This document shows positions 2,714 through 9,054 of a stretch of DNA of 47,635 bases, piece after piece. Source of the stretch: Rhodohalobacter halophilus (GTDB lineage Bacteria > Bacteroidota > Rhodothermia > Balneolales > Balneolaceae); NCBI RefSeq assembly GCF_001715195.1, contig NZ_MDWE01000004.1, forward strand, positions 1 through 47,635. Reading direction: 5' to 3'. A program made the position numbers and the translations under genes. The first letter of the stretch is position 1. Every line of letters starts with the position of its first letter. The notes beneath the pieces are model-generated. The model was not told the origin of the DNA and did not search any database. It saw nothing but the letters and a program-made list of their open reading frames with translations.

Positions 2714-3125
2714 GCAATAATGCTTCTGAGAATAATTCCTGTAAAATAGTATACAAGCAAGATACACGAAAAGCAGTAAAGCCTAGCCTTGTGAAATTGA
2801 CAGAGTAGCAGGTGAATGTGAGAATGAGGAGATCACAAATTCACCGGCCTCCGCCTTCATACTGACATTACCGGTCATTCTGATCCCGAAAGCATTCAGG
2901 AGAAGAATCTCCCTATGTTAACTTTATGGAATGATAAAAGTACGCATTGGCGCGTGGGGCTGCCATCAGGCTGTCACGCTGAGACAGGGGGTTTGAATGT
3001 CGAATTACGAATTACGAAAACCGAACTTCGATTTGTTACCTGCAACCTGCGGCTTGGGAAAACTCGTCAGGCGAACCGCCGCAAAAACACGCCGGAAATC
3101 GACAGACGAGGGTGATTCCGTTTGC
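2714..3125. other. intergenic stretch with a diverged repeat copy
   Basis: Between the Fic gene and the DUF4153 gene I see no coding region. The right part holds repeat copy 3 (2991-3112). The left part has no clear structure apart from a few purine-rich runs. The small frame at 2915-3115 only reads the repeat. Confidence 0.5.
2991..3112 (+). repeat. dispersed repeat, copy 3 (tail then head)
   Basis: Here a diverged GAATGTCGAATTACGAAT tail comes first and the hairpin head last: CTCGTCAGGCGAA at 3063-3075 and ATCGACAGACGAG at 3098-3110. Three positions of the stem are unpaired or wobble, so it is older than copies 1 and 2. Confidence 0.65.
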
Positions 3126-4967: not shown

Positions 4968-5031
4968 ACTCTATCCTATAAATTTATGCTTAGTTGAATG
5001 TAGCACAATTTGGGATGATAAAAAGAAAAAA

Positions 5032-5066
5032 GCTCCTCTCCATGTCACGTACATTTGCGTGAGAGG
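5032..5066 (+). repeat. small hairpin repeat
   Basis: TCCTCTC and GAGAGGA arms enclose an inner CACG/CGTG pair, with the loop centred on TACATTTG. The core CTCCATGTCAC..CATTTGCGTGA recurs near 5475-5505 with changes that break the stem, so the two are members of one small family. Confidence 0.5.
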
Positions 5067-5098: not shown

Positions 5099-5185
5099 TT
5101 TAAGATCATCTGGAATTCTGTACTCTGAAAAAATGGCCTTAAGCTTTCAGCGGAAAAAGTGAGCAGCTGGGAGATGAGATTGAGG

Positions 5186-5226
5186 ATTTGAATGACGAAT
5201 TTCGAATGCTGAACACCGATTTGTGA
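5186..5226 (+). repeat. degenerate tail copy of the dispersed repeat
   Basis: GAATGACGAATTTCGAATGCTGAA followed by CCGATTTGT: the same unit pattern as the tails of the other copies, without a hairpin head. Confidence 0.5.
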
Positions 5227-5343: not shown

Positions 5344-5545
5344 TATAGATGAGTCCATTAAAAAGTCGCCGAATAGAGGGAATGGTTCGAAGTGTAAAAC
5401 AAATTAGAGGCGATTATTTTACGATTTTGTTTTTGGGAAAGACAATTCAAGGTTCGTGAAATGTGCAGGAAATAGCTCCCCTCCATGTCACATGCATTTG
5501 CGTGAAAGCGTGGGTTGTCATGCAGCGGAGCTCCGGGACGAGGAG

Positions 5546-5756
5546 GGGAATTTGAATATCGAATATCGAATGACGAACGCCGAATTTTGATTTGTTGCAT
5601 GCGGCTTGAGGCTTGAAAAGATCTCGTCGGGCGAACCGCCGCAAAAGCACGCCGGAATTCGTCAGACGAGGAGGGATTTGAATGTCGAATGTCGAATGAT
5701 GAACGCCGAATTTTGATTTGTTGCATGCGGCTTGAGGCTTGAGGCTTGGAATAAAC
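5546..5756 (+). repeat. composite dispersed repeat, tail-head-tail
   Basis: Tail at 5549-5620, hairpin head with arms CTCGTCGGGCGAA (5623-5635) and TTCGTCAGACGAG (5658-5670), then a second tail at 5675-5748. The two tails share the CGAACGCCGAATTTTGATTTG stretch and a GCATGCGGCTTGAGGCTTGA end. Compared with copies 1 and 2, a T-A pair in the stem has become a G-T wobble, so pairing is largely kept. Confidence 0.75.
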
Positions 5757-6844
5757 CCGTCAGCCTGCACCGGACACCCTATACAATCAACCTTTTCTCC
5801 GGTTAATCTTAGCTAATTCTAACAATCACTACTTATCACGCATAAAAATAGCTTCACCATAGTAAAATGGATGATTTTCATCTGTTGACAACGGATTGTT
5901 TTATGTTAGATCAGTCGTAAGAGATTGTAATTCAGCTCTTTATATACTTACTTCTTCAACATTATCTCGTGCTGTACATTATTGGTTTAATTGTCATGTA
6001 ATCTATCTCTATATGGAAAAATGCTACAAATGTCTCTTTCAAAAATTTCTGATAACCATTTTTCTGATCATATTTTCCGGGTTATTCACCCAGCAGGCAT
6101 TTGCCCGGCAAGCGGATCGTCCCTTTTCGGTTGATCTGAATGCGGGCGGCGGCCTGATTGGAAATTCAACGACCCACACCGCATTTCAGCCGGAGCTGGG
6201 CCTCAGTTACATGCCGGGACGGTGGGGGGGCAGGTCTTACTGCCGGCCTCTACTCGTTTGATTCCGGATTCAGTGCTGATCAGTATCGAACGGGATATGA
6301 GCAGTTTACGGTAACCGAAGCAAGTGAAAACCAGTGGGAGGCGTTTTATCTCAATGCAGGTCCCCGGTTTGAACAGAGCCTGAGCCGGTTTGTTAGCATG
6401 AACCTGGGGCTCGACCTGGCTATGAACTATCAGGAGGCACCGTCTCAAACTGTCCGGTTTTATGACTCCACCGGTGAAATGGAAAGTTCAGGTGTTGACT
6501 CTGATCTTGTACTTGCCGAAATGGATGCGGGAGACAACGCAGGGGGATGGAGTGCTGCAATTCGCCCTCAGATGCAGTTTGATTTTAAACCCGGATTTAG
6601 TGACCGGTTCAGTTTTAATATTAAAACGGGAATTCAGCATCATCTGTCTGATCGTGAAATCACCTATTCAGAACGGGATCTTTCCCGGGTGATGCAGGTG
6701 GATAACGCTTTTGAGATGTACTCACAGTTTGAGAACGCTCCTGTTGTACAGCACACCGAATCGGCACCCAAAACCAACTTTTTTGCCAATGCCGGAATTA
6801 AGATCAGCTTTGGAGGATCCAGGGCACCGGCTGCACCCGGCCAG

Positions 6845-8020
6845 GATTATAACTCGAGCCGATCCAATAAACCCGGCGGAAGTATTGCCAATGATGGTAT
6901 AGGAGATGGTGATCCGGACAGTGATGATGACGGGATCGATGATGCTGTGGAAACCGCGCAGGACTATAACTCTAGCCGTTCCAATAAACCGACATCGGAA
7001 GCTGCTCCGGATGATGTCATAGAGATAAAACGGGACGGATTGGCTGTTGCAGAAAATTATATTGATGATATCATTGATGTTCTGGATCGTTGTGAGGAAG
7101 AAGTTTGCACACAAGTTCGCTTGAATGCGGATGGGAGAAAGGATAAGTCCCATCAAGTGAAACAGAGTCAAATTTCACAAGATCAGGGAATAGAAGATAT
7201 CCACAGCATTGTGATGGAGGATGTGGTTTCACTGAGTAAATGTGAATCAGCCGTTTGCGGTGAAGTATTAGCCATGGAGCAGGCACTGCTCGGCCACATG
7301 AATGCTCTTATGGGAGTGGTTCAGGCCACGAGGGCACAGGATTACAATGCAGCCCGGTCGAACAAACCGACCTCCCGCGCAGCGGATATTGGTGACGGTG
7401 ACGCGGATAGCGATAATGACGGGATCGATGATGCAATTGAAACGGCCAAGGATTACAACTCAAGCCGTTCGAACAAACCCAGATCAGAAGCCCGGGATGA
7501 CCTCAATGATGACGATTGTGATGACGAAGGCCCCTGTCCGCGGCCGGATGATGTACTGGCTAATGCCAAAGAGCTGGGGTTAGCTTCAGCCGGGAATGAT
7601 ATCAGCAGCATCATGCAGGTTCTGGACAGATGTGAGGAGGGAGTGTGCGGGCAGGTGAGGCAACATGCGGATGAACGCCATCATGGAGTTGTCCAGGCCC
7701 GGGAAAATCCCTCTGATATCGACATGCATATTGAAGAGATTTTGAACATTGTGAAGGAGGATGTTGAATCGCTGGGAAGCTGTGAAACCGATGTGTGCCG
7801 GGAAGTGCTGGCAATGGAAGAGAGTCTGCTGGTAAAAATGAATCGGCTGAGCGAATTGGCACAGATCGCTCCGGCCCGGGATTACAACTCAAGCCGCTCC
7901 AATAAACCGTCTACACGCGCTGCGGATATCGGTGACGGTGACATGGACAGTGATGATGACGGCATTGACGATGGATTGGAAACTGCTCAGGATTACAATT
8001 CCAGTCGATCGAATAAACCG
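6845..8020 (+). repeat. six DYNSSRSNKP-coding units
   Basis: Ten-codon units at 6845-6874, 6962-6991, 7340-7369, 7451-7480, 7880-7909 and 7991-8020. Five read DYNSSRSNKP and the third reads DYNAARSNKP. The codons differ between copies at many silent positions (for example the Arg codon is CGA, CGT, CGG or CGC) while the peptide stays the same. The peptide is therefore kept by selection and not simply a fresh DNA duplication. Confidence 0.85.
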
Positions 8021-8422
8021 TCCACACGTGCTGCGGATATTGGTGATGGTGACATGGACAGTGATGATGACGGCATTGACGATGGATTGGACTTCACAAT
8101 GGCCCGATTGGCAAACCCCTCAGGGTTGATTGTTAAGACGGGCATGGTGGCAGCGGGTGGTAATCCGTTATATAGCGGTAACACAAATTCCGGTGAAAAT
8201 CCGCTGAATGAAGGTCAGGCAAACGATGGAGACAGTGATGGTCCTGGATCGTCAAATGTTCAGCAGTATACCATACAACCGGGTTCATACTGCATGGAAA
8301 TAGGTACCAACTCCCAACCGGAAATGAACTCGAGTGCGCAAGCAGATCGAGGAATTGATAAAAAAGATATTCGTAGAGGAAAAGTTGATTCTGACGGATT
8401 CCCCGATTTCATGAAAACGGCA

Positions 8423-9043
8423 TCATTTAGCATCAGCAAGCGAAGTGCACGAACCGGCCGTAATCCATCCGGTGACGAAGATATGGATAGTGATGGAGAC
8501 GGAATCCAATTTAATCTGGAGATCGATCCAATCGATGAGGATTCAGATGATGATGGAGTGCTGGACGCTATTGAAACAGCATCCTACAGCATCAGCAAGC
8601 GAAGCGCGAGAACCGGTCGCAGTGCAGCTGCAGGAGGCAAAGAGATCGAGACGATGGAGTGGAATGAGGGAACTGCCAGGCAAATGGCGAGTGATGATGA
8701 CCCGTGTGGGCCGGGTGTGTGGGCCCGAACTACAGGGGGCAGTGAGAATTGCATTCCGGAAAACTCAGAACAGGAAAACCCGCTTGCGCAGGAATCGGGG
8801 CGGCAGGAAACTCCGGTCCTCGAAAATATACCTCCAGGTAATGTATACCGATGGACTTATAATTTGACTTCACTGACTGATGCTCAGGAAATTCCGGGAA
8901 GGACATTAACCGTCTTGTTCACCGGAGGCACATGGCACTTTAATGTGCATATCGATCCGGATGATGACGGGGACGGGTATGGTGATCTGCTTCAGAACAG
9001 TTCATTCAGCATCAGTAAGCGGTCTGCGAGAACGGGACGCAAT
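8423..9043 (+). repeat. three SISKRSARTGR-coding units (HU-arm-like)
   Basis: Units at 8423-8464, 8582-8623 and 9002-9043 read S[FY]SISKRSARTGR[NS]. Silent differences are frequent: the serine after KR is AGT, AGC or TCT, and the glycine is GGC, GGT or GGA. The first copy continues NPSG, as in the RxARTGRNPxTG arm signature of HU/IHF DNA-binding proteins. Confidence 0.85.
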
Positions 9044-9054
9044 TGAGTTGAGAC

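Follow-up and report, generated by a model that had tools for sequence, protein, structure and literature searches.

The arms of HU proteins carry the signature R-x-ARTGRNP, including the proline. Among outer-membrane proteins, OprF has TSP3-like loops behind its barrel, and an even number of barrel strands places the tail in the periplasm, a rule known for OmpA. We know of no KRSARTGR tip in the TSP3, FG-GAP or PF03495 families. Here we describe a gene from Rhodohalobacter halophilus whose product appears to combine a barrel of this kind, acidic loops, and a repeated peptide that resembles the HU arm. We refer to the whole stretch of DNA that we analyzed (47,635 nucleotides) as the window, and all coordinates are window coordinates. 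A preliminary description, made from the sequence, had reported the HU-arm-like peptide but overlooked a second repeated peptide (present six times), the barrel, the helical modules, and a frameshift.

A barrel gene with a frame break and an acidic tail

The source genome is 3.1 Mb. The tail of the protein is encoded by an open reading frame of 962 amino acids (6158-9046, + strand). The start of the protein, with a signal peptide that we identified by eye, is read in another frame (ORF 5896-6261, with an ATG at 6013), and tblastn stretches of the relatives' N-termini fall within 5989-6228. As assembled, the gene has its signal peptide and initial barrel strands out of frame with the remainder (Table 1). 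So the exported protein of the preliminary description does have a signal peptide, by eye, but not in the frame of the tail: a run of seven G's at 6224 interrupts the frame. This site is uninterrupted in all six of the relatives that have it. The window contains only two runs of at least seven G or C (2093-2099 and 6224-6230), and both lie at breaks of long frames. (The gene that is broken at 2093 looks, by eye, like Fic.) Either the assembly has homopolymer errors at the two breaks, or these are switches prone to slippage. For the barrel gene, an assembly error is the simplest reading; a real break or a tract that is switchable by slippage are possible alternatives.

Table 1. Features of the barrel gene and its repeated peptides
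Feature	Position	Strand	Basis
Signal peptide (by eye) and first part of barrel	6013..6223	+	Frame of ORF 5896-6261; homologous to relatives' N-termini
Run of seven G's, where the reading frame breaks	6224..6230	+	Six of six relatives unbroken
Remainder of eight-stranded OmpA/OmpW-type barrel (predicted)	6231..6826	+	Alignments; G031 model; fold searches
DYNSSRSNKP copy 1, just past the barrel	6845..6874	+	Sequence
DYNSSRSNKP copy 2, DxDxDG loop ahead	6962..6991	+	Sequence, pattern
Helical module 1	7013..7339	+	Four helices in G031 model
DYNAARSNKP copy 3	7340..7369	+	Sequence
DYNSSRSNKP copy 4, DxDxDG loop ahead	7451..7480	+	Sequence, pattern
Helical module 2	7550..7879	+	Sequence comparison
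DYNSSRSNKP copy 5	7880..7909	+	Sequence
DYNSSRSNKP copy 6, DxDxDG loop ahead	7991..8020	+	Sequence, pattern
Acidic loop and short helix 5' of HU-arm-like copy 1, DSDGFPDFMKTA	8387..8422	+	Sequence; low-confidence model
HU-arm-like copy 1, SFSISKRSARTGRN, then PSG	8423..8464	+	Sequence, profile searches
Calcium-loop-like stretch ahead of copy 2, DSDDDGVLDAIETA	8540..8581	+	Pattern, profile searches
HU-arm-like copy 2, SYSISKRSARTGRS	8582..8623	+	Sequence, profile search
Conserved C-terminal module: strands, acidic loop, copy 3	8843..9043	+	Alignment; NSSFSISK invariant in 6/6
HU-arm-like copy 3, SFSISKRSARTGRN, stop codon (9044-9046) immediately after	9002..9043	+	Sequence

In the DNA around the gene, an intergenic repeat of the source contig occurs at 400-533, 1261-1467, 2992-3111, 5184-5226, and 5520-5760. 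Comparing 5520-5760 to the source genome identified seven places (including itself), five of which are on the source contig. Also, a 42-base direct repeat lies 5' of the gene (5024-5065 and 5467-5508, 86% identical). A scan for promoters and terminators found nothing useful.

To describe the barrel we relied on an unbroken relative, G031, whose barrel is 86% identical to the window's barrel piece in the alignment. We modeled 430 residues of G031, starting from residue 60, with 9 sequences. By our own count of the listed strands, the model has eight strands, joined by short turns on one side and by long loops on the opposite side. For residues 1-231 the pLDDT is mostly 74-90, apart from one block at 51. 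The best fold match is a Legionella porin (Z = 17.6); other matches are NspA (Z = 17.3), the crystal chain of E. coli OmpA (Z = 16.9 over 156 residues, rmsd 2.7), the barrel of OprF (Z = 16.5 over 129), and OmpW (Z = 16.2 over 170), which is also the top match from Foldseek. As modeled in G031, then, the N-terminal domain is an eight-stranded barrel, as in OmpA. By sequence, the barrel is thinly supported: the window's barrel piece has no family in Pfam, and OMP_b-brl scored only 10.3 bits in another relative (G038). OmpA's peptidoglycan-binding domain is absent from the Pfam matches, up to E = 1, of the window protein and of five relatives with the HU-arm-like peptide. By the usual topology of eight-stranded barrels, the model suggests that the tail is on the periplasmic side, which weakens the preliminary description's idea that the protein binds extracellular DNA.

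The same barrel occurs with other tails. In G029, in G009, and in one protein of G032, the barrel is the only part in common, and the tail behind it is a different one (about 1,350 residues), where we saw neither peptide. Loci L064, L065, and L066 have this arrangement, and the next gene in L065 and L066 has an RLANP[SG]GL stretch (compare to RLANPSGL in the window protein). The barrel would seem to serve different tails as a common anchor.

The tail of the window protein has about 740 residues, a net charge of -84, and a pI of 4.2, while each 14-residue HU-arm-like peptide has a charge of +4. In the G031 model, the region beyond the barrel contains four helices, along with low-confidence linkers (block pLDDT of 24-40) that hold the copies of DYNSSRSNKP. 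The helical part has fold matches with Z up to 13.6, which might just reflect a common arrangement of helices. A model of the C-terminal 231 residues of the window protein has low confidence (mean pLDDT of 43); its strands at 25-31, 78-83, and 218-223 lie on the three S[FY]SISK stretches.

The preliminary description had placed calcium-loop sequence beside the HU-arm-like peptide. By a simple pattern, an acidic loop does precede all three copies in the window protein (and the pattern D.[DN].[DN]G has 10 matches in the protein, counting overlaps), but the profile scores are below the cutoffs. TSP3_bac reached 14.6 bits in one relative (cutoff 25), matches to FG-GAP were below Pfam's cutoffs, and PF03495 reached 21.9 bits on one fragment (cutoff 25), 14.6 bits on a shorter fragment, and 17.5 bits in G077. 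PF03495 is the calcium-loop domain of a toxin family; we read this match as a likeness of loops only, with no bearing on toxicity. In G095 and G032, the loop pattern was not found ahead of the peptides.

Some relatives have repeats of other kinds. Between the peptides of the G031 protein (locus L060, around residues 490-590) are short repeats that resemble the core of RCC1; RCC1_2 from Pfam matches above its cutoff in G031 (E = 2.9e-7) and does not match the window protein. The G003 protein (locus L061) has four near-identical repeats at residues 477-600, with 38-residue spacing, around NHNSSRSNRTSAIANPD. These suggest that the tail has grown by tandem duplication.

Two repeated peptides, and selection on one of them

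As the preliminary description stated, the window protein contains three copies of S[FY]SISKRSARTGR[NS], the last of which ends at the stop codon. It had also noticed that the first copy continues as NPSG and that silent differences separate the copies, including AGT, AGC, and TCT for one serine; we found both. For the three pairs of copies, 7, 9, and 7 of the 13 codons differ (8, 10, and 9 bases), with just 1, 0, and 1 residue changes. Equal numbers of random base changes would alter 5.2, 6.3, and 5.8 residues on average, and the proportions of 20,000 random trials that did as well as the real copies were 0.0002, 0, and 0.00015. Across the family, the 66 pairs of 12 full copies (which are not independent) have 443 synonymous and 73 nonsynonymous codon differences, and the nonsynonymous ones are confined to positions with S/T, F/Y, or R/K. 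Because the codons have diverged while the residues were kept, the peptide is under selection as protein.

We found the gene family in seven genomes (G000, G031, G003, G032, G038, G077, and G095), and the relatives that could be named belong to the Balneolaceae, including Gracilimonas amylolytica. Whole-protein searches had matches in 8 of 58 nearby genomes (counting the source genome), and a search with the peptide (E ≤ 0.01) had matches in 7 of 244 genomes of the class, all to the gene family. In the source organism's own genome (the preliminary description had proposed to search the proteome), the only three matches at E ≤ 10 are inside ORF 6158-9046. We also scanned for the family with an alignment of its C-termini. 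Among genome contigs, 87 stretches fit the pattern and 3 were confirmed (G095, G032, and G077); among viral contigs, none of 169 stretches was confirmed; and plasmids and phages had no match. Across these genome contigs, viral contigs, plasmids, and phages, we found no spread beyond the Balneolaceae. ARTGRNP, SRSNKP, and "GRNP motif" were not found in the open-access PMC literature, and RTGRNP appears, in the excerpts available from it, only in work on other subjects.

The two halves of the peptide are not equally conserved. Among 17 homologous [ST][FY]S[IM]S[KD] sites, 12 run on to ARTGR (with K[RK]SARTGR at 12/17) and five do not (the last site of G031, the middle site of G003, the first of G032, and both sites of G095), so conservation in homologues, which the preliminary description had made a test of its claim, stands for most sites but not for all. 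These counts use only the last piece of G077, which is interrupted by runs of N, and the sequence of G032 stops at the end of its contig; rows for G057 and G032:C18, which have internal stops and no readable peptide by a crude pattern, were left out. In all six complete C-termini, NSSFSISK and the serine two places on are invariant and the protein ends 3 to 6 residues past SISK[RK]S, while only four of the six have ARTGR. (G031 and G095 end without TGR.) By this measure, the strand is fixed, whereas the tip is softer.

The second peptide, DYN[SA][SA]RSNKP, occurs six times in the same tail. Three of the copies come directly after an acidic DxDxDG loop and ETA[QK], and the other three come after the barrel or after a helical module. 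In G032, DYNSSRSNKP and the HU-arm-like peptide are fused head to tail. DYNSSRSNKP has no match elsewhere in its own genome (E ≤ 10). It was found in 4 of 92 genomes from the taxonomic family, and in 4 of 394 genomes from the phylum (E ≤ 0.05), with no match outside of the gene family. Two fragments with DYNSSRSNKP had no match in Pfam or NCBIfam.

Likeness to the HU/IHF arm

The best NCBIfam match for the whole window protein is IHF-beta (E = 1.2e-6, summed over the three copies), followed by HU-beta and a second IHF-beta model (both 1.6e-5) and HU-alpha (0.11). HU/IHF models are the only matches up to E = 1, and all of them are below the curated cutoffs. Taken singly, copy 1 matches at 7.8e-4 and copy 2 at 0.053, while copy 3 has no HU match in either NCBIfam or Pfam. 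We scanned five relatives with the peptide: G031 (1.2e-4), G077 (1.1e-4), and G038 (0.037) match NCBIfam's HU/IHF models, and the whole proteins of G003 and G095 do not, nor do fragments of G003 and G038 alone. PF00216, the profile that the preliminary description named as a check, matches the window protein in the arm region (E = 0.013, positions 49-69 of 90), but with 16.1 bits against a cutoff of 22.4. Two fragments with copy 1 gave E = 0.002 and 0.01 (the better one has 18.8 bits, still under the cutoff), fragments with copy 2 or copy 3 did not match, and of the five relatives only G031 did. Among solved structures, the 10 matches to the region of copy 1 are all IHF, HU, or named DNA-binding or histone-family proteins (best E = 0.0038); copy 2 matched two HU-type chains (0.21 and 0.58) and an unrelated coat protein (2.7).

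Searching the 394 genomes of the phylum with a 33-residue query (E ≤ 0.01) gave matches in 19, of which 5 are the gene family. The other 14 are all HU proteins, with arms such as SFTVSKRSARTGRNP and GFGSFTVSKRSARTGRNPFTG, and 12 of the 14 contain ARTG[RK]NP. The same query matched no HU across the class, because the HU arms in the source order differ: in all 21 genomes of the order, the best HU has an arm of the form FKVVKRAxR[VI]ARNPKTN. The source organism's own best HU arm is GFGSFKVVKRAQRVARNPKTN, so descent from its own HU is unsupported. An alignment of the peptide sites matches the HU proteins of the order with E = 0.0085, and it matches other HU proteins with 2.4e-8, or both sets together with 2.2e-7, although the latter two values are biased because the other HU proteins were found using the peptide. 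The copies of G000, G031, G077, G038, G003, and G032 align from position 45-49 of the HU profile, and copy 2 continues with GKEI after the turn, as in HU-beta.

The order of the residues matters. With a profile of 34 HU proteins (which is biased, as 13 of them were found by means of the peptide), the segment of copy 1 scored 21.6 bits, compared to at most 8.1 bits for permutations in place (4,997 scored). With the same profile, the three copies scored 15.9, 6.8, and 9.3 bits; the best of 5,000 shuffles of the tail scored 3.8 bits, and a second set of 5,000 reached 7.1 bits, which exceeds copy 2. A stricter profile of 21 HU proteins from the order, chosen by Pfam, gave the segment of copy 1 9.0 bits against a maximum of 6.2 bits for permutations. 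Within the whole protein, however, copy 1 scored 3.1 bits with this profile, or less than the best shuffle of the whole tail (3.9 bits), so this stricter control failed, and similarity to HU above that of random peptides holds for copy 1 against its permutations but not in every control. Of 598 frames of at least 100 codons (many of them overlapping) in the loci that we compared, none outside of the HU relatives and the gene family exceeded 4.9 bits, and the frame with this score (in HU locus L024) bore the crude mark of the family by chance.

Overall, the sequence comparisons indicate that the likeness to the HU/IHF arm is real and specific, with limits. Despite this likeness, they place the window protein outside of the HU family. 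Just 2 of the 12 full copies keep the proline after RTGRN. The preliminary description saw no HU body around the arm, and we ruled one out within the helical modules as well (hhalign E of 0.15-0.43 against HU alignments). phrog_379 scored 17.3 bits in G031 (E = 0.0053) and 12.8 bits in the window protein (0.13), with no single stretch being significant. Of the preliminary reading as a whole, a conserved peptide with an arm-like sequence survives, but the proline, the HU matches, and ARTGR are all patchy.

Possible roles of the peptide

We propose, with a probability of roughly 0.5, that the peptides are the basic tips of loop/strand modules and dock the tail on an acidic partner. The signal peptide would export the gene product, the eight-stranded OmpA/OmpW-type barrel would anchor it in the outer membrane, and the long acidic tail would lie in the periplasm as a chain of modules, each with an acidic DxDxDG calcium-type loop, a short helix, and a beta strand, along with helical bundles, and the two lineage-specific peptides would join or cap these modules. 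S[FY]SIS would form the strand after the acidic loop, with KRSARTGR[NS] as the basic tip upon it. Calcium might order the loop and the strand and so present the tip, which could then dock on a polyanion or an acidic partner (neighboring acidic modules, a polymer of the cell wall or envelope, or another periplasmic protein) and hold the tail in place. The likeness to HU would then mean that both use a strand with an Arg/Gly-rich tip at its end to grip a polyanion, rather than that the protein belongs to the HU family.

Docking alone leaves the specific resemblance to HU unexplained, given that all 14 outside matches are HU proteins. A possible but doubtful alternative is that the tips hold DNA by its minor groove, in the manner of HU's arms, and tether it to the outer membrane; the DNA could be incoming DNA that has reached the periplasm or, were the tail on the outside, that of a biofilm. 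The 14 HU matches, the IHF-beta matches of the whole protein and of copy 1 alone, and the dependence of copy 1's score on residue order, argue for this, and having several copies per chain would give avidity. But the HU body is absent, the proline is usually missing, ARTGR is missing from 5 of 17 sites, copy 3 alone lacks an HU match, two of the relatives lack one in NCBIfam, the tail is strongly acidic, and the eight-stranded barrel points to the periplasm. We consider it rather unlikely that an envelope protein with several HU-arm-like grips on a calcium-stiffened tail holds DNA at the outer membrane. DNABII proteins stabilize biofilm matrices, and antibodies have been directed at their DNA-binding tips, according to one report (PMC12982335). 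The probable periplasmic side and the acidic tail speak against carrying this picture over to the window protein. The likeness could also have come from capture, which is a claim about origin and is neutral as to function: part of an HU gene, encoding the arm that is common in bacteria, would have recombined into the tail and then been duplicated. The shared alignment start in the HU profile and the GKEI of copy 2 are consistent with capture, but the match spans only about 15 residues, the HU proteins of the order have a different arm, and G095 keeps GKEIETME without KRSARTGR, so those residues are seemingly native to the host protein. On balance, capture is unlikely.

Other explanations leave HU aside. 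The peptide might be a C-terminal tag or sorting signal that export or anchoring machinery recognizes, with the internal copies as relics of tandem growth. The uniform ends of the six complete C-termini, with their invariant NSSFSISK, fit a tag. However, the internal copies are also conserved and have further modules after them, G031 and G095 end without TGR, and the peptide was matched nowhere else in its own genome, whereas sorting signals are normally common to several cargos; we think that a tag is quite unlikely. It is also improbable that the gene is broken in the source genome, with the frameshift separating the signal peptide from the tail. A broken gene would be compatible with any function in the relatives, and the frame break is there, but constraint is still strong in the downstream sequence and four stretches are 65-87% identical to G031. 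Also, the second run of seven G's, in the Fic-like frame, lies at a frame break too, which suggests homopolymer errors in the assembly. Finally, we would be surprised if proteases cut at the basic residues to release a short functional peptide. There are several Arg or Lys sites and copy 3 is C-terminal, but long acidic pieces would come off if the internal copies were cut.

Should the tips prove to bind DNA, an envelope protein would be using the arm of DNABII proteins without their body, and the peptide would be a simple one to test for DNA uptake or for matrix anchoring. Otherwise, the protein is a clean case in which likeness to a famous motif, specific over 15 residues, arose elsewhere, in an unrelated, acidic, and probably periplasmic tail.

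How does the protein compare to known systems? It shares about 15 residues with the arm of HU/IHF (DNABII; PF00216, TIGR00988), namely SFS(I/V)xKR(S/A)ARTGRN, in identical order, but it is acidic, it has a barrel and no HU body, it mostly lacks the proline, and its scores are below the curated cutoffs. With TSP3, FG-GAP, and bacterial calcium-loop repeats (PF18884, PF01839, and PF03495), it shares, by pattern, the acidic DxDxDGxxD loop; here the loop precedes a predicted strand, and all of the scores are again under the cutoffs. With proteins of the OmpA/OprF type, it appears to share the eight-stranded N-terminal barrel, with acidic DxDxDG loops behind it. The peptidoglycan-binding domain of OmpA is absent from its Pfam matches, and the window protein has repeats of basic peptides and helical modules instead.
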